Below are positions 8,033 through 42,351 of a stretch of 43,899 nt of DNA, in pieces. Source of the stretch: a virus; IMG/VR virus record IMGVR_UViG_3300031240_000017, positions 1-43,899 of that record. One strand, given 5' to 3'. Below the pieces are notes generated by a model. It was not told the DNA's origin, did not search any database, and saw only the letters and a program-made list of their open reading frames with translations. Within the stretch, counting starts at the first letter, position 1. Each line of letters opens with the position of its first letter. Position numbers and translations under genes: made by a program.

Positions 8033-9607
8033 GTGGCACAGATTATTCAGTCGAGTTCTTTCAATCCGATCAATCTTCGGGCAAACGGTCTTTATATCGT
8101 TCGCCGTCCACCTTCGGGATTTAAAGCCGCAGTCGCAACCGATGTAATTGGATTTGTCGGTGGAGCTGATTGGGGTAAACGAAATCAACCAACTCTAGTT
8201 GGTGATGTGCGAGCTTACGGCCGCGCATTCGGCCCCTTGAATGCAGCGTCTTTGACTGATGTTCATGACATGGCGATTGCAATCAATGTCGCCTTCTCCC
8301 AATCCGCTGGCGGAAGCCCTATAGAGGCGCTCTGTGTTGCCGTAGATGACGGCACGGCTGATTATGCAACGATTGCCCTTGTTGACACTTCCGGCTCTCC
8401 TAAAGCCGGTGGATCGCTCACCGCAAGATGCGTCGGGACTGCTGGTAACGCAATTACCGTCAATTTTGCAGCTGGCACAGTCACCAATACCGTAAACGTC
8501 AAGATTTTTGCCTTCGATGGCGCCGATTCTGAAATTTACGAAAACCTTCCTTCTGCCGGAGCTGGTGTTTTCTGGGCTTCCTTGAAACAAGCCGTCAATT
8601 TCGGAAATACTTTGCGTCCACCTTCTAAGCTCGTTCGCTTCGTTGACGGAGTTGACGTTGCAACCGCAATCACTCCAGCGCTTGGCACCTTTGATTTGAC
8701 CGGTGGATTGTCTGGCCGTTCCGGAATCGACTCAGCCGACTTGCTTGGTTCTGATTCCTCAGTTCCAAAAACCGGCGCCTATTCGTTGCGTTCGCAAGAT
8801 CCTTCTCCGTCTGTCGTTGTCCTTTGCGGCAACTATGACAATACAATCTATTCAAGCCTTAAGACTCTCGCTGAGTCCGAAGGCTGGATTCAATTGCTCG
8901 ATTTTAGCGCTGGTACTTCAAGCGCAACTGCAAAGGCTAACAAGAAAACCTATGCCGTTGACTCGTTCAACGTCGGCTATTGCTGGAACCAAACCTACAT
9001 TTACGACTCAGTCAACGGACTCACCAGGCTTCTGCCGGCGTCTTACACGATTGGCGGCAGGATTGTTTCATTGCAACCTCAAGAGTCCTGCGGAAACAAG
9101 GAAGTCTTCGGTATTGTCGGAACAGAAAGAAACGATCCTTCAACTGGCGATGTTCCATTCAGTGAATCGGAAGAAGGAGATTTGGAGCAATCGGGAATCC
9201 TCTTCATCAAGAGAGGTATTCCACGCAATGCCAACATCTTTGGGATCAAGCACGGGATGTCATCGCTCACTGGTTTCAATACTTCAAACCTTGCGCATAC
9301 CCGCATAATCACATTCTTGTTTAAGACCGTTGAGTCTGCTGTCGGCCAGTTTGTCGAAGAAATTCAAACCACTGATGTCGATGATCAAACCCGTTTGGGC
9401 GTCGAAACGGCTGTTAATTCAGTTCTGATCGAAGCTCAGAAAAATAGACTGGTCGATCAATTCAAGGTCCAATGCGATCTCGACAACAACAGCCCAGCAA
9501 CAATCGCCGCTGGTCAACTCAACTACAAGACCGAGATCCGCCCAATTGGACATGCCCGATTCATCATCTGGGATTTCACCTATGACGTGAACGCCCAGGT
9601 CGCCTAA
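8033..9607 (+). CDS. Contractile tail sheath protein
   Basis: 524 residues, GTG start with GGAG nine bases upstream. Sheath subunits form the contractile outer cylinder that drives the tube through the host envelope. The C-terminal part shows the usual pattern: FLFKTVESAVGQFVEEIQTT (arm helix), a helix SVLIEAQKNRLVDQFKVQCD, and a final strand segment IGHARFIIWDFTYDV that interlocks subunits. The N-terminal half contains a beta domain with GTAGNAITV, typical of Mu/P2-type sheath domain insertions. Length is in the family's usual range. The next gene is the tube protein, as expected. Confidence 0.8.
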   Translation: MAQIIQSSSFNPINLRANGLYIVRRPPSGFKAAVATDVIGFVGGADWGKRNQPTLVGDVRAYGRAFGPLNAASLTDVHDMAIAINVAFSQSAGGSPIEALCVAVDDGTADYATIALVDTSGSPKAGGSLTARCVGTAGNAITVNFAAGTVTNTVNVKIFAFDGADSEIYENLPSAGAGVFWASLKQAVNFGNTLRPPSKLVRFVDGVDVATAITPALGTFDLTGGLSGRSGIDSADLLGSDSSVPKTGAYSLRSQDPSPSVVVLCGNYDNTIYSSLKTLAESEGWIQLLDFSAGTSSATAKANKKTYAVDSFNVGYCWNQTYIYDSVNGLTRLLPASYTIGGRIVSLQPQESCGNKEVFGIVGTERNDPSTGDVPFSESEEGDLEQSGILFIKRGIPRNANIFGIKHGMSSLTGFNTSNLAHTRIITFLFKTVESAVGQFVEEIQTTDVDDQTRLGVETAVNSVLIEAQKNRLVDQFKVQCDLDNNSPATIAAGQLNYKTEIRPIGHARFIIWDFTYDVNAQVA

Positions 9608-29649: not shown

Positions 29650-29846
29650 AGTGGCTCAAAAAACTCCTTAACGCTGGTTATCGCGTCGACACCCTCCCAA
29701 ATCAAAACGGTGATGGGCGGTTTATTGTGAGAGTTTGGCTCTATTTTGGGCCAGATATTATGAATCGGAAAGTCGTTTTCGACGACTGCGAATGGGATGT
29801 TGAATCAATGTATCAAGCGGCTTGTCAGAGGCTGGGGGTTAAGTGA
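29646..29846 (+). CDS. Small hypothetical protein
   Basis: 66 residues, ATGA overlap with the preceding gene. Compact alpha/beta composition (KKLLNAGYRVDTLP, FIVRVWLYFGPD, VVFDDCEWD). It precedes the methylase, whose GTG start overlaps its TGA. Unknown function; the unbroken overlap chain supports translation. Confidence 0.45.
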   Translation: MKWLKKLLNAGYRVDTLPNQNGDGRFIVRVWLYFGPDIMNRKVVFDDCEWDVESMYQAACQRLGVK

Positions 29847-30649
29847 AATACAGAAGTTGCATCCGATACCCCGGAGGCAAACAACGGCACTTAAAATACC
29901 TAGTCCCTTTGATGCCCAAAGGAGTCTTTGAGATGCGTGACGTTCTGTGCGGTGGAGCTTCGGTTTCACTAGCAGCGGCAAAAGAAGGCATCGCCAAACG
30001 TTACTGGCTCAACGACCTTTTCTATCCGGTTTTCAATTTCTGGCATATCGTGAGCAGACTCGGGCAAGAGCTTGTGAACGAAGTTTTCTTCATTCACGAA
30101 TTGACTGACGAAAAACTGAGGGAAAGAGTCTTAGAAGGCAAAGAAAGACTACTCGCAAACAAGCCATACGACTCACTTCTTATGGCAACTGATTTCTTTA
30201 TCCTCAATCGCTGCAGCTTTTCAGGTTCAACTCTTTGCGGCGGATTGAAAGGAAAGATTCGCGAACGTTTCAACCTAAGCAACATCACCCGAATTCTCGA
30301 TTGCTATGTCGTTATGAAGGATTTCGGATTCACGGGCGTCGACTTTTCAACAGTTATTCAAAAGGGTGGCACGGAATCTTTCCTGTTTTGCGATCCGCCA
30401 TATATCTCCGCTTCCAAGCTTTACGGCAATGGTGGTGATCTACACGACGACTTCGATCACCTTAAACTAGCGGAGTTGCTTCACGAAACCGATCACAAAT
30501 TCATGTTGACCTATGACGATCATTATCTGATTCGGCGCTGGTATGGCGGATTCAACATCCGCGAACTTGGCGTCACAAACTCAATGGACAACTGCGGAAA
30601 GAGCGGGAAGCCGAAGAGAGTAAAGGAATTGGTAATTACGAATTACTGA
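29843..30649 (+). CDS. DNA adenine methylase (Dam-like, N6-adenine)
   Basis: 268 residues, GTG start with GGGGG upstream. Motif I region YPGGKQ near 9-14 with CGGASVSLAAAK (39-50) binds S-adenosylmethionine; the catalytic DPPY lies near 183-186; LNRCSFSG (130s) and YDDH (about 233) are further family features. Together they match the D12 class (alpha group) of adenine methylases that modify GATC or similar sites. In phages these protect DNA from host restriction or time gene expression. Target recognition cannot be told from sequence. Its neighbours are early-type genes. Confidence 0.85.
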   Translation: MKYRSCIRYPGGKQRHLKYLVPLMPKGVFEMRDVLCGGASVSLAAAKEGIAKRYWLNDLFYPVFNFWHIVSRLGQELVNEVFFIHELTDEKLRERVLEGKERLLANKPYDSLLMATDFFILNRCSFSGSTLCGGLKGKIRERFNLSNITRILDCYVVMKDFGFTGVDFSTVIQKGGTESFLFCDPPYISASKLYGNGGDLHDDFDHLKLAELLHETDHKFMLTYDDHYLIRRWYGGFNIRELGVTNSMDNCGKSGKPKRVKELVITNY

Positions 30650-30694
30650 TGGAACGAACGATTGTTAGAAACCCAAACTGAAGGAAAAACTAAA

Positions 30695-31444
30695 ATGTCA
30701 ATAAAACAACTAAACCAATTGATCGCTCTGGAAAAAGGCGTAAAGCAACGGACATACAAAGAGATTGACGCAGCATATGACTTGCTGCGAAAACCGGAAG
30801 TACTCAATGGATTTGCAAAGGAATACCAGCCGCTTGAGGAAAACGGACAAAGCTTGCCGTCCGAATCGAAGAAAGTTCAGATAACGTCCGGTGAACTCTT
30901 TGAAATTATCAAAGATCAGATGATCGAATACCTCAATATTGAAACCAGCAAGGATTTTACGAATGCTTCTGCAACCGGTGACATCATCGCCAATGGTGTC
31001 GAGATCCAAAAGGGCGTTCCGGTTACAACATTGCTGGCATTGGAGAAACAACTTCTTGATCTGAGAACCAGTATTGAAAAAGCTGTAACGCTTGATCCTT
31101 CGCAAGACTGGAAGTTCGACAAAGCTACTGGCTGCCAACGAACAGAACCGGTAAGAAAAGCTCGCACCAACAAGGTTCCAAAGGTAATTACGTTGGCACC
31201 CGCTACAGACAAGCACCCCGCCCAAACACAGCTCCTTCAAGAAGATGTGATCGCAGGCTATTGGGTGCAAACGGAAATTTCTGGAGCACTTGAAGCACCG
31301 ACAAAACGCAACTACATTGAAAGAGTGAATGATCTTCTTGATGCAGTGAAAGCCGCACGGGAACAAGCAAACAGCACGGAAATTAAAAGGTTCGAATTCG
31401 CTGAGAAGATGTTGAATTACGTCTTCGCTGGTGATAAAGTCTAA
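30695..31444 (+). CDS. Unknown protein beside the tRNA-like cluster
   Basis: 249 residues from ATG 30695, with AAGGAAAA 10-18 bases before it; an upstream in-frame TTG (30662) lacks a better ribosome site. The start IKQLNQLIALEKGVKQRTYK leads through EYQPLEENGQSLPSESKKVQ, a central segment VPVTTLLALEKQLLDLRTS, a KATGCQRTEPVRKARTNKVP stretch and KHPAQTQLLQEDVIAGYW. I remember similar proteins in other phage and bacterial genomes (a DUF7873-like group) but no function. No catalytic motif is evident. The stop lies 44 bases before the first permuted tRNA half, so it may be co-transcribed with that cluster. Confidence 0.6.
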   Translation: MSIKQLNQLIALEKGVKQRTYKEIDAAYDLLRKPEVLNGFAKEYQPLEENGQSLPSESKKVQITSGELFEIIKDQMIEYLNIETSKDFTNASATGDIIANGVEIQKGVPVTTLLALEKQLLDLRTSIEKAVTLDPSQDWKFDKATGCQRTEPVRKARTNKVPKVITLAPATDKHPAQTQLLQEDVIAGYWVQTEISGALEAPTKRNYIERVNDLLDAVKAAREQANSTEIKRFEFAEKMLNYVFAGDKV

Positions 31445-32774: not shown

Positions 32775-33188
32775 ATGACATTAGGCGACACAACCGAAAA
32801 CGACATCGTTAAGTACATATTCAATTCCGTTTCGATGCCCAACTATGGCTCGGGCGATTTGTATGTGAGTTTGCATACGGCCGATCCTGGTGAAGCCGGA
32901 AACCAGCAAACAAGCGAGGCGACATATACAAGTTATGCCCGAGTTTTGGTGACTCGCACTGGGACCGGTTCTTGGACTGTATCGGCAAACCAGGCGTCGA
33001 ATACTGCGGCGGTAACTTTCCCGACAGCGACAGGCGGATCAAACGTCATAACGCACGTCGCAATCGGAACAGTGATCAGCGCGACTGGACAGATTATTGG
33101 CTCGGCTGCATTGCAAGCGCCGATAACGGTCGTCAACGGAATCGCGCCGAAATTCGCTATTGGCCAATTGATCTTCAATCTGGACTAA
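32775..33188 (+). CDS. Phage structural protein of fibre/collar type
   Basis: 137 residues. The phrase SGDLYVSLHTADPGEAGNQQ then ATYTSYARVLVTRT is typical of a widespread family of small phage virion proteins adjoining fibres. The C-terminus is beta (ALQAPITVVNGIAPKFAIGQ). AAGGAT is present before the ATG at 32775, and an AAGGAG site for the next gene overlaps its end. Likely a virion component; detailed role unknown. Confidence 0.65.
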   Translation: MTLGDTTENDIVKYIFNSVSMPNYGSGDLYVSLHTADPGEAGNQQTSEATYTSYARVLVTRTGTGSWTVSANQASNTAAVTFPTATGGSNVITHVAIGTVISATGQIIGSAALQAPITVVNGIAPKFAIGQLIFNLD

Positions 33189-33197
33189 AGGAGTCTC

Positions 33198-34052
33198 ATG
33201 GGTTTCAGTAGTTTGGATGACATGATCAGCGAGATCTCATCCGGAAAGTATCAGCACACAAGATTCCAGAAAGTCTCATCAAACGGAGCCACTTCGGCCG
33301 CCGGCAGATGGCATGAATGGTTCACGGCAACTGGTATTCCTGCGGCTGGCTCTTTCACTGGAACAGCTGGGGTGGCGACTCAGATGACTCGCACCACGAC
33401 AGGTGCAATGGATGTTAACGCTGATGTCTCGACTGATACGCGGCATTTGCTTTCGGGTTCGATGTGGACGGCCTCTTCGGTAATCACTCCGGCGACGGCA
33501 ATCCTGGTCGATATGCTTTTGTATTACCCTGCCTGTGTTGTCACCGGCACTCCGACCACATTAGATAACACTGCTACTCTTCCTAGATATACAAACGGGA
33601 AAGGCGTCATGTGCATCATTGCTGTGCAAACGGCTCTCGGTGCGGCTTCACCTGCTTTGACGTTGACCTACACCGATGACTCGTCAAACACTGGTAACGC
33701 CTCGAGCGCAATGACATCTCCGGCTAACTCGGCTCCAATTTCGACAATGTTTGCCGCTGGAACCGGCGCTCCATTTTTGCCTCTGCTTGCTGGCGATGTC
33801 GGCATCAAAAAGATCGAATCTTATACTTTGGCATCCGGCACAACCGGCACCGCAGCTTTTATTCTCGTTAAGCCTCTAGCCGAATTTCCTATCGTCGCAC
33901 AATACGTGCCAGGCGAAAGAGAATTTGTGACGCAGTTGCCGGCATTGCCTCAGATTGTCGACGGAGCTTGCCTTGGCTGGTTGACCTTACTCGGCGGCGC
34001 GATGACAACTTCGCAAGCAATTAGCGGACACATTAACTTCGCATGGGGTTAA
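33198..34052 (+). CDS. A-family appendage protein, copy 1
   Basis: 284 residues, AAGGAG upstream. Founder-type member of five tandem paralogues (33198, 34056, 34947, 35808, 37138). Shared landmarks: an N-terminal helix (FSSLDDMISEISSGK), GTAGVATQM with DVNADVSTDTRH, ATAILVDMLLYYPA, LPRYTNGKGVM, LTYTDDSSNTG, GDVGIKKIESYT, a KPLAEFP segment, a terminal DGACLGWL and a strand ending NFAWG. No signal peptide. The fold is unknown to me; repetition and place between fibre genes suggest a surface or tail appendage protein. Confidence 0.6.
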   Translation: MGFSSLDDMISEISSGKYQHTRFQKVSSNGATSAAGRWHEWFTATGIPAAGSFTGTAGVATQMTRTTTGAMDVNADVSTDTRHLLSGSMWTASSVITPATAILVDMLLYYPACVVTGTPTTLDNTATLPRYTNGKGVMCIIAVQTALGAASPALTLTYTDDSSNTGNASSAMTSPANSAPISTMFAAGTGAPFLPLLAGDVGIKKIESYTLASGTTGTAAFILVKPLAEFPIVAQYVPGEREFVTQLPALPQIVDGACLGWLTLLGGAMTTSQAISGHINFAWG

Positions 34053-34055
34053 ACT

Positions 34056-34943
34056 ATGTCGCTGGTTGGATTCAACGACTTAATCACCTCTTTGACGGGT
34101 GGCAAAAGCTACTCTTCTTTCTATCAGAAGACTATCTTTAATCCGGCTTCTTCCGCTGCTGGACGTTGGCATGAAACTGCGTCAGCTTATGGCATTCCCG
34201 GTACTGGTGGCGGCGTTGGAGTTTGGTCCGGAACTGCCGGCGTTGCAACTTCCTGCATAAATGCCCGCAATGGTACGCAGCCTTGGCTTGATGCTGGTCC
34301 GGCTGTAACGACTGATACTAAAATTCTGACCTCGGCTTCGATGATTACGAACGTCTCGACGCTGCCTCCTGCTTCGGCGATCCTTGTCGATGTCCTGCTC
34401 TATTATCCAAACCTCGTTTTAACAACGACACCGACAACCCTGAATAATTCGACGACCTTGCCTCGCAATACCGGTGGTACTGGGGTGATGGCTTTTGCCG
34501 CGATTCAGACCGTTGGGACTGCTGGCGCGGCCGCGATTAAATTGACCTATACCGATGACAGTTCGAATACGGGAAATGTCTGCGCTCAGTCGTTAATTCT
34601 TCCGGCTGCAACTGCTCCTGTTTCGAGTTGCTTCCACTGGCAAGCGGCCGGACTGGGAGTCTTTACCGATCTTCTGACGACCGATAAAGGCATCAAGAAA
34701 ATCGACTCTTATTCGATCTCTGTTAATGGCGACGGTAAGGGCGTTATCGTCCTTTGTAAGCCATTGTTGCATATACCTTTGGCTGCGCAGTATGTTCTTT
34801 CGGAGCGCGATTATGTTATGCAAATGCCTCCCGGTCCAATCATTCATGATGATGCATGTTTGATGTGGCTTATCTCGATGGGCGGCACGGTCACAGCGGC
34901 TTCCGCCGATATATTCGGCGAACTGAATTTTGCTTGGAGTTAA
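34056..34943 (+). CDS. A-family appendage protein, copy 2
   Basis: 295 residues, three bases after copy 1. Retains the N-terminal helix (FNDLITSLTGGK), SSAAGRWHETASAYGIPG (as in copy 1), ASAILVDVLLYYPN, TLPRNTGGTGVM, LTYTDDSSNTG, KGIKKIDSYS and CKPLLHIPL. It has a few inserted residues near 60-75 relative to copy 1. The end (ADIFGELNFAWS) matches copy 1 except for the final residue. It is closest to copy 1 by eye. Confidence 0.6.
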   Translation: MSLVGFNDLITSLTGGKSYSSFYQKTIFNPASSAAGRWHETASAYGIPGTGGGVGVWSGTAGVATSCINARNGTQPWLDAGPAVTTDTKILTSASMITNVSTLPPASAILVDVLLYYPNLVLTTTPTTLNNSTTLPRNTGGTGVMAFAAIQTVGTAGAAAIKLTYTDDSSNTGNVCAQSLILPAATAPVSSCFHWQAAGLGVFTDLLTTDKGIKKIDSYSISVNGDGKGVIVLCKPLLHIPLAAQYVLSERDYVMQMPPGPIIHDDACLMWLISMGGTVTAASADIFGELNFAWS

Positions 34944-34946
34944 CTA

Positions 34947-35807
34947 ATGGGTTTCACTGATGCAGCCGATCTGAAGACTGAGATTTATACAAATGGAAAA
35001 TTGTATACCGCTCGTTATAAGAAAACATGGCCCAATGGTGCCGGTACGGCGGGCAGGTTCTATGAGCTTTTCACATCAACTGGTATGCCCGGCACGGGAA
35101 CCTTTGCCGGATCGGCCGGTATTGGAACTGTCCCGACAAGCGCGACGACCGGCGCTCTTGATATTGGTCCGAACGTCTCAACGGATACAAAGCACATTCT
35201 TTCAGCAAACATGAGAGTCCCGGCGGCCACAATGGTTCCGGGATGCATGATTTTGGTCGACATCGTCATTTATTATCCGGCCTGCACTATCAATGGATCG
35301 CCTGCAACTCCAACGACATTGGATAATACAGCGACAATCTCGCGCTATACAGATGGGCTCGATCTGAAATGCTTTGTCGCAATTCAGGCAACCGCAACCG
35401 GCACGGCCTCGATTGTCTTGACTGGTAAAGATGCAGCAAATAACACGATCACGCACACAACTGCCGTCACAAATGCCGCGACGGGCGTTTCTCTTTTGTG
35501 CTCTGACGTTGGCTCCGGAAGCCTACCATTTGTAGCATTCACGTCAGGCACGTCAGGTCCGGTCAAGATCACCAGCTATACCTCAACCGGCGCGACCGGT
35601 GGAACTGTTGCGATCGTGATTTGCAAACCGATCCTGGTTTTGCCTGTGCCTGACTCAACTTTCTGGGTTGAACGTGATTACCTCACAATGTACTCGAAAT
35701 TGCCACAAATAAAAGACAATGCCTGTCTTGCATGGCTGGCTTTTCCAGGTGGCGCATTGGCGAATAACACCATATTTAGTGGCGAGATTCAAATGGGTTG
35801 GGGTTAA
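34947..35807 (+). CDS. A-family appendage protein, copy 3
   Basis: 286 residues, three bases after copy 2. Shared marks: TDAADLKTEIYTNGK, GTAGRFYELFTSTGMPG, DIGPNVSTDTKHIL, CMILVDIVIYYPA, TISRYTDGLDLKC, a C-terminal KDNACLAWL and a strand ending QMGWG. It lacks the LTYTDDSSNTG phrase, having ALTGKDAANNTITH-type residues in the same place. The stop abuts copy 4's ATG with no gap, so the run is translated as one set. Confidence 0.6.
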   Translation: MGFTDAADLKTEIYTNGKLYTARYKKTWPNGAGTAGRFYELFTSTGMPGTGTFAGSAGIGTVPTSATTGALDIGPNVSTDTKHILSANMRVPAATMVPGCMILVDIVIYYPACTINGSPATPTTLDNTATISRYTDGLDLKCFVAIQATATGTASIVLTGKDAANNTITHTTAVTNAATGVSLLCSDVGSGSLPFVAFTSGTSGPVKITSYTSTGATGGTVAIVICKPILVLPVPDSTFWVERDYLTMYSKLPQIKDNACLAWLAFPGGALANNTIFSGEIQMGWG

Positions 35808-36692
35808 ATGTCAATCGCAAGTTTGAACGATATCAATTCCGCTATTGCCGCAGGAAGGCTCGCCTCTAGCTATTTCACGCTTACTGTCGGAAGTGGAAGC
35901 AATGGCAGCATACTGGATACCTTCATCCGATCAAGCGGTAGTATTCCGGCTGGGCCAGTTTCAGGCACCCTTCCTGGCACCGCGAAAGTTGCGGTAGCAA
36001 TGGATCGCACTACGCCTGGAGCATTAGACCTAAATGCAAATGTGTCGTCATCTGTTAGACAGGTTCTTTCTGTAGATATCAACGCAGTTAACAGCAATAT
36101 CGGAACGACAGCCATTCTCGTTGATATGCTTCTATATTACCCTTCCTGCCCTTCAAGCAATGGCTCGATGACGAACACCGCAACTTTGCCGAGATATACG
36201 GACGGGAAAGGGGTAATGGGCTATGTCGCATATAACACGGCCGGGGCAACACCTGGGGCCAGCGCATGGGTTCGTTTAGACAAAACGAATGACTTAAACA
36301 ACACGGGCGGATTTGATGCGAGTGGCGAGCATGGAATCATCTCTGATGGATTGGGTAGCGTTCACCCCTTTCAGACTGGCGGTGTTTCCGGCGGAAACAC
36401 AAACGGATGCTGGTTCGCTTCTGTAGGTGCGGGCGCAACCGGAATCAAGCAGGTAAATTCCTATACCGTGGGAAGCAATTTTGGTGGCACTTTCAATGTG
36501 ATTTTGTGTAAGCCTCTACTGCATGTAAATATTGGACAAGAGGGTTGCGCTATTAAAAAATTTGGAATAGGTGAAGCTCCCATAATTCAGGATGGCGCCT
36601 GTCTTAATTGGCTCTTTTATTCGCCACAAACCTCTGGCACATGGCCTTTCACTTTTCGCGCTACAGGGAGCATTAGATATATATGGGGTTAA
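35808..36692 (+). CDS. A-family appendage protein, copy 4
   Basis: 294 residues. N-terminal helix IASLNDINSAIAAGR, GTAKVAVAMDRTTPGAL, TAILVDMLLYYPS, ATLPRYTDGKGVMGY, GIKQVNSYT, CKPLLHVNI and QDGACLNWL are all present. It is the most diverged of the first four in its middle. Its last codons overlap the next (B-family) start by ten bases: the ATGGGGTTA start lies inside the WG-stop of copy 4. Confidence 0.6.
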   Translation: MSIASLNDINSAIAAGRLASSYFTLTVGSGSNGSILDTFIRSSGSIPAGPVSGTLPGTAKVAVAMDRTTPGALDLNANVSSSVRQVLSVDINAVNSNIGTTAILVDMLLYYPSCPSSNGSMTNTATLPRYTDGKGVMGYVAYNTAGATPGASAWVRLDKTNDLNNTGGFDASGEHGIISDGLGSVHPFQTGGVSGGNTNGCWFASVGAGATGIKQVNSYTVGSNFGGTFNVILCKPLLHVNIGQEGCAIKKFGIGEAPIIQDGACLNWLFYSPQTSGTWPFTFRATGSIRYIWG

Positions 36693-37138
36693 TAGTAAAC
36701 GGCACAGAATATTCTCAGTTTAGAGAGCAATTCCAGGGTGGAAACTGGAATTTCGGTAATAATGTCGGTCCCATAAAAACCAGCACGGCGGCTAATTGTA
36801 GCGGTTTAAGCAAATCCTTTTATCCCCGCGCCGGCTTTATCCAAGAGATTCCGATTCCTTCGGGTGACTATACCCAAAATCAATGCGTCTCCTTGCCGGT
36901 TAAGAACTTCTCAGGGCTCTATGCTTTAGGACAGGCTGCAGCAGGCACCATTTCTGGTGCTGGAACGATCACTGCAATTCTGACTAGAATCTTCACCGGC
37001 GTCATCTCGTTCATGTATGCAGTAGTAAGCGGGAAAGCCGGCGGCACTTCGACCGCTATCGCTTCAATGACGGTGAATATGAATGCAGTTGTCTCAAGCA
37101 CGGCAACAATCACAGCAACGGCAACGGCGGATCAGTAA
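36683..37138 (+). CDS. B-family appendage protein (short copy)
   Basis: 151 residues. It begins GLIVNGTEYSQFREQFQGGN and continues with an aromatic and cysteine-containing stretch, then Gly/Thr-rich beta repeats (GTISGAGTITAILTR). The start and this GT-SG-GTITA repeat match the N-terminal portion of the protein at 37992, so the two are paralogues; this copy ends after the beta repeats, where the other carries on into an 18-residue repeat array. It overlaps copy A4 by ten bases and copy A5 by one. Confidence 0.6.
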   Translation: MGLIVNGTEYSQFREQFQGGNWNFGNNVGPIKTSTAANCSGLSKSFYPRAGFIQEIPIPSGDYTQNQCVSLPVKNFSGLYALGQAAAGTISGAGTITAILTRIFTGVISFMYAVVSGKAGGTSTAIASMTVNMNAVVSSTATITATATADQ

Positions 37139-38001
37139 TGGGATTCAGCGGAGTCGATGATCTGAAAAGCGAGATTGCTGCAGGTAAATCGTCTTGCAGT
37201 TATTTCCTTCATGCGTCGGCCCAAGTTGGCACCTTTCCCGCCTTCTACAATACTTTCATTCGCACATCTGGAGTCCCGGCGCCAAATACTTTGACCGGGA
37301 CCGCCGGAGTCGCCACATCTTTAGACCGCACGTCAACCGGAGCGATCGCTTTGAATGCGAATGTCTCAACCGACACAAGGCATGTGATCTCCGTTTCTAT
37401 CGCGCCATTTTTAACGGCGGGAAACCCTTATCAAGCCATTCTTGTCGATATGTTGCTTTATTATCCGAGCGTTGTGCTGACTGGAACACCAACGACATTA
37501 GATAATACCGTGACACTTCCTCGCTATACGAATGGCAAAGGAGTGATGGGCTTCTTTTGCGGACAAGTCGCTGGCGCTGGCGCCGTCCAAATCACCCCGA
37601 CCTATACCGATGACGGCGGAAACGCTGGCAATGCCGGCGGAGCCTTGGCGACTTCGGACTGCTCTGTTATTACCGAGGTCTATCATGCCGAGAATGACAC
37701 TTCTGCTTTTCGCGCCAGTCCATTCATTCCGCTCGCAGCCGGCGACATAGGTATTAAGAAGATCGAGTCATACACAATTGGCACCGGGCAGGCGACAGCA
37801 ACAGGCGCATTTTTTCTTTGCAAGCCGATCCTCGAGTTGCACTTCCAGAGCCATCTCGGAATTGAAAAGAATTTCGTCACCGACACTCTGACGCTCCCAC
37901 AAATTCAAGATGGTGCTTGTTTGACATGGCTGATTGGGGGAGGATCAGCTACAGTAGCCAGCTTCAAATTCAGCGGGAGCATTAAGTACGCATGGGGCTA
38001 G
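37138..38001 (+). CDS. A-family appendage protein, copy 5
   Basis: 287 residues. It starts at the B-family stop (GTAATG overlap). Shares FSGVDDLKSEIAAGK, GTAGVATSLDRTSTGAI, NVSTDTRHVI, AILVDMLLYYPS, LPRYTNGKGVMGF, PTYTDDGGNAG, GDIGIKKIESYT, CKPILEL and QDGACLTWL. Its end overlaps the second B-family gene by ten bases with the same WG-stop/ATGGGG arrangement as A4-B1, which indicates duplication of an A-B pair. Confidence 0.6.
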   Translation: MGFSGVDDLKSEIAAGKSSCSYFLHASAQVGTFPAFYNTFIRTSGVPAPNTLTGTAGVATSLDRTSTGAIALNANVSTDTRHVISVSIAPFLTAGNPYQAILVDMLLYYPSVVLTGTPTTLDNTVTLPRYTNGKGVMGFFCGQVAGAGAVQITPTYTDDGGNAGNAGGALATSDCSVITEVYHAENDTSAFRASPFIPLAAGDIGIKKIESYTIGTGQATATGAFFLCKPILELHFQSHLGIEKNFVTDTLTLPQIQDGACLTWLIGGGSATVASFKFSGSIKYAWG

Positions 38002-40457
38002 TAATTAATGGCCACAGATTAAGCGGGCTCCGACAGCGCTGGAATGGCGGCACGGGGGCAACTACTTCTATTGGCGTCGAGCAGGGCTATGGCCTTCCTG
38101 GGCGCATATTCTTTCGCCACGGGTTCAATGAAGGCGAAGGCATTCCGGCTGAGACGCATTTCTCGAGCGTTCTCTATTTACCATTAAGACCCGGCTACGT
38201 AATCGGCACAGTCTCAGGAACCGGCACGATCACGGCGACGATGATCGGTGAAGGGCCGCTTTATGCGACGATCTCCGGGCAAAGCACTTTAACGGTTGAA
38301 GGCTATACCGATGCAACGCCTCTTTATGACGCGGCAATCTCCGCGACGATTTATGGAACTGGCTCAGTAGTCGGTAATGCGACTATCGCGCTTCAACAGC
38401 AATATATTTCCGCGACAGTGAGCGGCAAAGGTTCAGTTATTGGGCAGCCGCCAATCCCGATCAGGGTTGCGCTCAGCTATTTGTCGGCTGCGGTCGTCAC
38501 TCTCACCAAATTCCGAATCATCCATGTAATCTTGAGCTATTTGTCCAGCGCGGCTCGCACTTGCCTGAAGATGCCGAAAGTCATCAAGTCGATTACTTCT
38601 AGTCATGCTCTCACCCTCACGAGAAAGATCTACAAGACGATCTCATACCTTGAAACCTGCGTTTACACGCTCACGAAGCTGATAAGGCCGACGAAAAGCT
38701 ACCTGTCAAGCCATGCTCAGTCGTGCCTGAAAGTGGCGAAGTTGATAAAATCCTTCACAGCGAGCCATGCATATTCTGTCACCCGAAAAATCTACAAAAC
38801 GCTTTCATACTTGGAAGCGGCATCGCAGAGCATTCTCAAATCCTGCCGGCGAACCCTTTCTTATACGGGCTCCCATGCTCAGACGCTTACGAAGAAGCTC
38901 GTCCGCACCTGGACCTATACCTGCTCGAATGCGCAAACGCGGATTAAGAAGATCTACGCCACAAAAACCTATGTCTCAACAGCGATTCAAACAATTGCGA
39001 AGCTGCTTCCGCGCACAAAAGCCTATACATCAAGCCATGCTCAGACATTTATCAAACTGATTAAGCCGACTAAAAACTATGTGAGCAGCCATGCTCTGAC
39101 GCTGATCAGAAAGATCTATGCGAAAAAGAATTATGTCTCGACGGCCGTCCAATCAATCGTCACGGATTTCATCTCGGGCACAATCCACAAGACGCTTAAT
39201 TACGTTGCGGGAAGCACTGTCACGACGCGGAAATTTGTCGAAGTCATCAAATCCTATACAGAGTCATGCGTTTACACTCTGACGAAGTTGCTTCCGCGCA
39301 CTAAGACATATGTTCCAAGCCATGCTCAGACATTCATAAAGAAGATCGAGCCGACAAAATCGTATTTGAGCGGCCACGCTTTGACGTTGACGAAAAAAAT
39401 CTATGCGACAAAAAGCTATCTTTCAACATGCGTTTACACGCTAAGAAAGCTGATCTATCTGATTAAGTCGTACACCTCTACGGCTCACCAGACCTTCTTC
39501 GATCTGTTTGTTTACCTGCGGACCTTCAACTATGTCGGCGGTCACGCGCAAACACTGATCAAGAAAGTCAAAGCAACGAAGAATTATGTCTCCGGATCGG
39601 CTGTGACTTTGCGGCGATTGTGCTTGAAAACAATCTCTTATGTCGGCTCTCACGCACAAAGTCTGATCAAGAAAGTTAAAGCGACGAAATCCTACACCGC
39701 GGCAAGCACCGTCACACACACAATTCTGCACGTCGTTTTGTTGACTTTGACTTACCTGTCAAGCCATGCCCAATCGCTGACAAAGAAGGTATTCGCTACG
39801 AAGTCCTATATTTCGAGCCATGCACAAACTCTGACGAAGCTCACAAAGGCGACAAAGTCTTATTTCTCAAGCCACGCTCAAAGCCTCATAAAAAAGGTCA
39901 AGGCGACGAAAGCCTATACCGTCGCGCACAACTGCTCCCTGGCAGCCTCACAGGTGGCAACACGAGTCTTCAATTATGTTGCTGGATCGGCAATAACAAT
40001 CCGGAAGCAAATTGATGCGACGAAAAACTATGTCGCCTCGAGTCATTTGACGATCAGGAAATTCATCTCTCTGACAAAAGTGATCGTATCTCATTGCCTC
40101 TACTCAATAATCAAGCAAGCCGAAACGACCATAACGGTCTCGGTGAATATCCTCGCTCACGGCGCGGTCAGCCTAACAAAGTCAATTCACAAAACTCTCA
40201 GCTTTGCCGGCAGCATTAATTCAACTCTGCAAAAGCTGATCAAGAAAACAAGAAATTTCCTCGCCGTCTGCAATTACTTCATTGTGCGCCAAGGTCTAGC
40301 ACTCGACCTTAAGTTCTATATCGTCGCGGCCGTAAAGCTCAGAACAATCATGTCGGAAAAAATTCGTATTGGCGCCCCCGAGGCAAAAGACCGCATTATA
40401 GAGTCAATCAAGAATCGGCTTTTCATCTCAGGAGAAAGGGACCGCAGTGACGACTAA
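37992..40457 (+). CDS. 821-residue protein with about 33 copies of an 18-residue repeat
   Basis: B-family N-terminus (MGLVINGHRLSGLRQRW, then GTVSGTGTITATM-type repeats to about residue 155). Residues about 158-774 consist of a repeated unit near 18 residues long: S-Y-x-S-S-H-A-Q-T-L-x-K-K-x-x-A-T-K with T/K-rich variation; nearly all copies have the Y and most the hydrophobic T-L. Lysine and arginine make it very basic. Two spacer blocks (near 390-410 and 640-660) break the period. The C-terminus is short and charged. It overlaps A5 by ten bases and the adaptor gene by 11. No known family; possibly a fibre, a membrane- or polyanion-binding rod. Confidence 0.7.
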   Translation: MGLVINGHRLSGLRQRWNGGTGATTSIGVEQGYGLPGRIFFRHGFNEGEGIPAETHFSSVLYLPLRPGYVIGTVSGTGTITATMIGEGPLYATISGQSTLTVEGYTDATPLYDAAISATIYGTGSVVGNATIALQQQYISATVSGKGSVIGQPPIPIRVALSYLSAAVVTLTKFRIIHVILSYLSSAARTCLKMPKVIKSITSSHALTLTRKIYKTISYLETCVYTLTKLIRPTKSYLSSHAQSCLKVAKLIKSFTASHAYSVTRKIYKTLSYLEAASQSILKSCRRTLSYTGSHAQTLTKKLVRTWTYTCSNAQTRIKKIYATKTYVSTAIQTIAKLLPRTKAYTSSHAQTFIKLIKPTKNYVSSHALTLIRKIYAKKNYVSTAVQSIVTDFISGTIHKTLNYVAGSTVTTRKFVEVIKSYTESCVYTLTKLLPRTKTYVPSHAQTFIKKIEPTKSYLSGHALTLTKKIYATKSYLSTCVYTLRKLIYLIKSYTSTAHQTFFDLFVYLRTFNYVGGHAQTLIKKVKATKNYVSGSAVTLRRLCLKTISYVGSHAQSLIKKVKATKSYTAASTVTHTILHVVLLTLTYLSSHAQSLTKKVFATKSYISSHAQTLTKLTKATKSYFSSHAQSLIKKVKATKAYTVAHNCSLAASQVATRVFNYVAGSAITIRKQIDATKNYVASSHLTIRKFISLTKVIVSHCLYSIIKQAETTITVSVNILAHGAVSLTKSIHKTLSFAGSINSTLQKLIKKTRNFLAVCNYFIVRQGLALDLKFYIVAAVKLRTIMSEKIRIGAPEAKDRIIESIKNRLFISGERDRSDD
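38463..40313 (+). repeat. 18-residue protein repeat array
   Basis: About 33 units of 54 bases encode the repeat described in the 821-residue gene. Units vary at the DNA level, so this is an old or selected array rather than a fresh tandem duplication. The phrase SSHAQTL, or a close variant, recurs more than a dozen times, with the pair KKVKATK or KKIYATK after it. Confidence 0.8.
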
Positions 40458-41427: not shown

Positions 41428-42351
41428 ATGGGAAATGCATACATGGCGGCAGATCTTCGCGTGCCTACTTTGATGGACGTTTGGCTGGATTACAAAAGGA
41501 CGCGGAAGCTAAAACCCGCAACCGAAGCCGATTACAGCAAAAGACTCAGACAGTTGAGTGATTGGTGGGAGACGCCAATCAACGAAATTTCAAAAGGTTT
41601 GATTTGTGATCGGCACCAAACTCTCACAGAAAGAAGTCCAAGCCATGCCAATCTGGTATTCAAGGTTCTACGGGCCTTGATGACATATGCCGAAATTAAA
41701 TACGAAGACCGAGAAGGCGCGCCACTTTTGAAAAGCAATCCCGTAAAATCGCTGTCCAGCTTGCGGGCGTGGAACAAAATCAAGCGGCGGAAAACGATCA
41801 TCGGAAAGCATCAAATGAAGGCATGGTTTGAAGCCGTCTACAGCCTTGAGAATGTCGTGGTGCGTGATTTCCTTCTGACTCTTCTTCTGACAGGACTACG
41901 CCGGCAGGAAGCGGCATTGCTGACGTGGGACCGCATTGATCTGATTGGTCGCCGGATTCTCATTCCCGATACAAAAAACGGAGACGATCACGAACTTCCG
42001 ATTCCCAACTACTTATATAGAGTCCTTTCCGAGCGAAACCTTGGCAAGCGAAGCTCAAATCCCTACGTTTTTCCTGGAAGGGTGGCCGGGAAATCACTGT
42101 GCAATAGCAACAAGTCCTATCAGCACGTGATTGAAAGATCGGGCGTCCAGTTCTGTTTGCACGATTTGAGACGCGGATTTGCCACGACAGCCAGAAGCGC
42201 CGGGATAGACAAGGACTATATTAAGCGCCTCTTAAATCACAAGAGCCAAGACGTGACGGACGGCTACATCATCATGTCAGTAGAAGATCTCCGCAAACCT
42301 ATGCAGCTCATAGAAGATTGCATATTGGAGGCTGCTGGGTTAGGATTTTAA
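41428..42351 (+). CDS. int: Tyrosine-type integrase
   Basis: 307 residues, ATG with GGGGTGAC about ten bases upstream; two nearby in-frame ATGs (41437 is out of frame, 41443 in frame) make small changes. The N-terminal arm/SAM-like domain ends near 110; the catalytic domain has the conserved Arg in LTGLRRQEAALLTWDR (about 156), HDLRRGF (His near 245, Arg near 248), His in LLNHKSQD (about 271) and the tyrosine nucleophile in TDGYIIM (about 279). This set defines phage integrases. It drives integration and excision of the phage; the target is suggested by the tRNA-Asn fragment just downstream. Confidence 0.9.
   Translation: MGNAYMAADLRVPTLMDVWLDYKRTRKLKPATEADYSKRLRQLSDWWETPINEISKGLICDRHQTLTERSPSHANLVFKVLRALMTYAEIKYEDREGAPLLKSNPVKSLSSLRAWNKIKRRKTIIGKHQMKAWFEAVYSLENVVVRDFLLTLLLTGLRRQEAALLTWDRIDLIGRRILIPDTKNGDDHELPIPNYLYRVLSERNLGKRSSNPYVFPGRVAGKSLCNSNKSYQHVIERSGVQFCLHDLRRGFATTARSAGIDKDYIKRLLNHKSQDVTDGYIIMSVEDLRKPMQLIEDCILEAAGLGF

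Follow-up and report, generated by a model that had tools for sequence, protein, structure and literature searches.

Introduction

Most long fibres of phages have a beta structure, with a receptor-binding tip at the end. Two described systems bear on the locus reported here. The first is the fibre apparatus of Ralstonia podophage GP4, with its fibre I protein gp80 and fibre-tail adaptor gp77. The second is the GIN/DUF2807 beta-helix domain (PF10988; PDB 3jx8, 3lyc and 4opw), which matches the 20-residue repeats of a group of uncharacterised proteins from uncultivated phages, hereafter the B family, and does not match the 18-residue units described below. B proteins are encoded beside genes of a second family, A. 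They comprise a short N-terminal domain followed by 20–21-residue repeats such as LAASLSGSGTITASL. Many of them, though not all, end in an AVWNALA...GTMGEKL segment, which was therefore not treated as family-defining. B proteins of the type found at loci L084, L055 and L008 carry Gly-rich repeats, are about 280 residues long and contain on average 2.1% lysine (maximum 5.4%).

We analyzed a 43,899-nucleotide stretch of viral DNA (positions 1–43,899 of IMG/VR record IMGVR_UViG_3300031240_000017; the window). The same phage is also represented by the 77-kb contig IMGVR_UViG_3300028558_000024, with 99.97% identity over the 10.7 kb compared. One of its genes (37992–40457, plus strand) encodes an 821-residue basic repeat protein (90 kDa, computed pI 10.1), which we place among putative surface repeat proteins of phages as a variant, new in its 18-residue unit.

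Results and Discussion

The repeat array spans residues 161–753 (38472–40250, plus strand) and comprises 32 units with the consensus K-S-Y-[VLT]-S-S-H-A-Q-T-L-T-K-K-I-x-A-T. At lag 18 the repeat region had an autocorrelation of 1.03, whereas 1000 shuffles averaged -0.53 (sd 0.08) and reached -0.23 at most. A unit profile, iterated and placed by dynamic programming, scored 998; no more than 60 was obtained in 500 shuffles. The preliminary description had proposed about 33 units of the form SYxSSHAQTLxKKxxATK; the consensus was correct and the count essentially right. Units are spaced by 18 residues except for four spacings of 20 (+2), one of 22 (+4) and one of 23 (+5). The firmest positions are Thr/Ser10 (32/32), Ser/Asn/Thr2 (29/32), Lys/Arg13 (28/32), Tyr3 (27/32) and Thr18 (23/32). 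A frame artefact was rejected because a single frame is both open and periodic, the other five containing 11–49 stops, with a lag-18 signal that is small or absent. The unit scan stops at residue 753, and the remaining non-repeat C-terminus (residues 754–821; 40251–40454, plus strand) gave nothing above cut-off in Pfam or PHROGs.

The array is an old protein-level repeat rather than a recent DNA tandem array, its DNA having diverged to near saturation. Between-unit differences were highest at the third codon position (0.68, against 0.55 at the first and 0.51 at the second), indicating that the repeat is old and has been kept by selection on the protein. At conserved Thr/Ser positions each of the four Thr codons occurs and Ser is drawn from both of its codon boxes, and Tandem Repeats Finder did not detect the array at the DNA level.

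No match to the 18-residue unit was found in Pfam, PHROGs, NCBIfam or the PDB, and the complete protein matched no PDB chain, those of GP4 included. Pfam matches to DUF4456 and similar families (E 1e-4; 22.5 bits, where the cut-off is 27.5; no stretch passing alone) were discarded as composition artefacts. Searching phage and plasmid records by tblastn gave no relatives of the unit. Viral-contig searches with the full protein, a repeat fragment, the unit alignment or the related protein described next returned only the same phage and that second protein itself. By these comparisons the 18-residue repeat is known here from two phages and is unrecognised by the libraries searched, as the preliminary description had anticipated; the match to an annotated repeat family that would have spoken against it did not appear.

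A scan of all open reading frames of the fetched loci identified one other protein with the 18-residue unit, so the repeat is not a singleton. It is encoded directly after three A-family genes on a 103-kb contig (L009:14108–15412; IMGVR_UViG_3300014325_000012). It has about 14 units, mostly exact 18-mers such as KSYTDNNTYTKTSTIKLI, KNYVESDTYLKSNIIKPT and KTYTENQTFFRLRLIELI. Unit profiles of the two proteins aligned in register (hhalign probability 96%, E 4.9e-9, score 41.3; controls reached at most 17.5), and ungapped comparison gave p 0.0007 at offset 0. Tyr3 is kept in 13/14 units of the second protein. The proteins share their homologous unit (K-S/N-Y-V/T...) and their place right after A-family genes. 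They differ in that the L009 protein has fewer units, more E, N, Q and Y, and no SGxGTIT neck; its N-terminus showed no significant similarity to the B family or to the window protein. Searches for similarity between the two phages in sheath, portal and capsid proteins came back empty at the level applied, with no positive control run. A shared unit alongside dissimilar structural proteins points to a module common to otherwise different phages. Nearby on the same contig, a domain with beta-propeller-like repeats (SNTISATISSVGTNPIGIAINPAGTLVYAV) has been inserted into an A-family protein (L009:11386–13224), interrupting it.

The N-terminal domain of the window protein (residues 1–68; 37992–38195, plus strand; MGLVINGHRL...IPxxx...LPLRPG) was compared with 61 B-family N-termini by hhalign, giving E 6.2e-5 and a score of 30.6; none of 100 permuted controls exceeded 15.0. 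Extending the comparison to residues 1–160, with the N-termini from both B-type frames of the window (starting at 36683 and 37992), gave E 6.7e-6 and a score of 40.3 (control maximum 18.6, n = 100). A single-profile HMMER search with the B N-terminus could not tell the window protein from shuffles, whereas the profile–profile test could. The second B-family protein of the window (36683–37138, plus strand; 151 residues) has SGAGTIT repeats and none of the 18-residue units; its N-terminus is 32% identical to that of the repeat protein. The B-type N-terminus claimed in the preliminary description is therefore borne out, and is common to this neighbor and to B proteins of many other phages.

Residues from about 69 to 150 (38196–38441, plus strand) appear to hold four imperfect SGxGTIT-type units of 19–26 residues, resembling the ordinary B-family beta-repeat. 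These could be seen by eye and in alignments, but a repeat HMM gave E of only 0.035 for the best stretch. B proteins with 20–21-residue SGSGTIT repeats were also noted downstream of A genes at many other loci (L012, L024, L040, L048–L055, L060–L084 and others). The window protein resembles B proteins beside A genes (for example at L084, L055 and L008) in its N-terminus, gene position and operon partner, and apparently in its SGxGTIT-type repeats. It differs from ordinary members by its 32 additional Lys-rich 18-mers and by lacking the AVWNAL...GTMGEKL segment. Given the homologous N-terminus, sequence comparison identifies the product as a B protein in which an extra, basic array takes the place of the usual C-terminus.

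Five A-family paralogues of 284–295 residues, 29–49% identical in all-against-all blastp, are encoded in the window. Four lie consecutively on the plus strand (33198–34052, 34056–34943, 34947–35807 and 35808–36692), and the fifth (37138–38001, plus strand) is directly upstream of the repeat gene and overlaps its start by a few bases. The end of the repeat gene similarly overlaps a homologue of GP4 gp77 (PF23148; 40447–40749, plus strand; Pfam 2.2e-7, above the family cut-off). These start and stop overlaps make the repeat gene part of one operon. A homologue of GP4 gp80 (PF23140, phrog_240; 32775–33188, plus strand; Pfam 1.1e-21, PDB 8jou E 3.3e-8) brackets the module on its other side. Upstream of the module, 29843–31444 encodes a D12-class adenine methyltransferase followed by a DUF7873 protein. 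The phage is contractile-tailed, with a tail sheath gene at 8033–9607 followed by baseplate genes, and has an integrase at 41428–42351.

One IMG/VR scan returned 457 candidate stretches encoding A-family relatives, with members in podophage, siphophage and jumbo-phage records. Among 125 A-bearing loci, 101 encode a B protein within 1.2 kb downstream of the A gene. Where visible, the A/B module in other phages adjoins portal, protease or capsid genes. The A family matched nothing in Pfam or the PDB, and nothing significantly in PHROGs; for members tested, neither family had a significant Pfam, PHROGs or NCBIfam model, and neither PHROGs nor Pfam has a family made up of B proteins. The A family is a common, unnamed family of virion gene clusters.

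The B-type N-terminus, the place after an A gene, the flanking gp80 and gp77 homologues, and the portal, protease and capsid neighbors elsewhere together support a virion-fibre reading. The best-supported functional proposal from these comparisons is that the protein attaches to the virion by its B-family N-terminus. It might instead be an intracellular basic protein that acts on nucleic acid or membrane and merely lies within the operon. This would suit its strong positive charge, and we found virion proteomics for neither the protein nor any relative: for Pseudanabaena phage PA-SR01, which carries an A gene, virion proteins have been analyzed by SDS-PAGE only (PMC10286775). We consider such a role very improbable, as the N-terminus is homologous to a family that accompanies A genes in many phages, near fibre, portal and capsid genes.

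The array contains 90 K+R against 9 D+E, a net charge of +81 over 596 residues, which bears out the earlier claim of a strongly basic protein. Lys and Arg occur almost wholly at unit positions 1, 12–14, 16 and 17, leaving positions 2–11 nearly uncharged. Charge alone could suffice if the array were a disordered or weakly structured polycation serving as spacer or condenser. Such a polymer would be consistent with a low-complexity, T/S/K-rich composition and with the pLDDT of 36 throughout that AlphaFold2 gave for the whole protein without an alignment, a model that we discarded. Hydrophobic residues are nonetheless abundant (GRAVY 0.05) and fixed at positions 4, 8, 11 and 15 over 32 units despite saturated synonymous sites. 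A bare polycation needs neither these nor a Tyr3 maintained in both phages, and we regard this explanation as unlikely.

Periodicity in the averaged window unit favors a helix. At 100 degrees per residue it has 56% of its hydrophobicity power (permutation p 0.0008, and 0.0036 on a second scale); with any frequency allowed, p was 0.008 and 0.044, respectively. Positions 4, 8, 11, 15 and 18 form a straight hydrophobic stripe at a 3.6-residue period, with Lys13 opposite, and this stripe would not wind since five helical turns take up exactly 18 residues. The same 4-3-4-3-4 spacing over 18 residues is shared with octadecad (18/5) straight coiled coils, which combine a heptad with a hendecad. In contrast to usual coiled coils, the window unit is Thr/Ser/Tyr-rich and nearly devoid of Glu, and the L009 units lack this spacing. 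AlphaFold2 with an alignment of the array's own units and those of L009 predicted a single continuous 200-residue helix (core pLDDT 70–86, pTM 0.28), long helices being a common default of the program for repetitive input. The five models made with the repeat-based alignment scattered from 23 to 70 and agreed poorly.

The 100-degree periodicity, the predicted helix and the confinement of K/R to few positions support a helical rod. Counting against it are the low pTM, the T+S content (26%), a mean Chou-Fasman propensity higher for beta (1.10) than for alpha (1.00), turn-like placing of Gly and small residues (positions 5–8) and of Pro (15–17), and the L009 units, which showed no clear helical periodicity and carry a Lys at position 11, on what would be the core face. 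The +2 insertions also count against it, as each would shift the hydrophobic stripe some 200 degrees around the helix. On the modelling and periodicity we rate helix somewhat above beta for the array. Of the solenoid or amphipathic rod suggested in the preliminary description, the periodicity and the moderate AlphaFold2 model tentatively favor a helical rod, not a regular solenoid.

The units of the same virion fibre could alternatively be beta, each 18-mer forming a beta-solenoid rung or beta-fibre hairpin as a lysine-rich derivative of the 20-residue SGSGTIT rung. The B-family profile matches the GIN/DUF2807-type structures 3jx8 (E 5e-5) and 3lyc (E 0.001), which are beta-helices. The array directly follows the apparent SGxGTIT-type repeats in the same chain. 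Its Gly and small residues cluster at positions 5–8, like the SGSG turn, with Pro at 15–17, and the invariant T/S at position 10 and the beta propensity point the same way. That the 18-mer arose from the 20-mer is attractive by eye (SSHAQTLTK against LSGSGTLTA) and was unsupported in three tests: the repeat HMM gave the weak value cited above, profile–profile comparison was at control level (hhalign score 5.9, matched or exceeded by 9/60 permuted controls), and ungapped profiles gave p 0.10–0.35. Pfam returned no GIN/DUF2807 match to the 18-residue units. Moreover, Lys13 would share a strand face with L11 and I15, and no AlphaFold2 model, with or without an alignment, had strands in the array. 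We rate beta units only somewhat less probable than helical ones.

Our best reading, held tentatively, is a virion surface fibre in which a helical rod binds anionic envelope polymers; its virion location, helix, oligomeric state and ligand are all inferred. The B-family N-terminal domain, made together with A-family proteins, would anchor the protein to the particle, followed by a short SGxGTIT beta-repeat neck. The 32 amphipathic units would then form a long, straight alpha-helical rod with core positions 4, 8, 11, 15 and 18, up to about 89 nm long if fully helical. The rod would probably be an oligomer, kinked or broken at Pro-bearing units or at the +2, +4 and +5 insertions. Its opposite face would present Lys/Arg at positions 13, 1, 14, 16 and 17, with about 2.4 net positive charges per unit. 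Charge and genomic context suggest that this face may bind acidic cell-envelope polymers, giving loose, reversible adsorption.

A basic rod with a Lys/Tyr/Thr unit along its whole length would be an unusual adsorption device and possibly a new fibrous scaffold. More speculatively, and in our view somewhat unlikely in its entirety, the 18-residue unit could be a new fibre-forming repeat: a straight 18/5 Thr/Ser/Tyr/Lys helix bundle, tens of nanometres long and bearing a lysine ladder. As a cassette it would pass among the B proteins of unrelated phages, and a glycine-rich appendage that is normally short would thereby become a long fibre able to bind polyanions. The locus also exposes a common two-gene virion module, formed by the A and B families, in which repeats of more than one type can occur on the B protein; what repeat chemistry does at the phage surface is thereby open to test.

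A further repeat lies at the window's edge, where an open reading frame running off the contig end (43164–43899) contains 11 copies of a 27-bp tandem repeat encoding 9-residue units (AHASTAGQE). The 77-kb contig ends in the same repeat, indicating that assembly breaks there.
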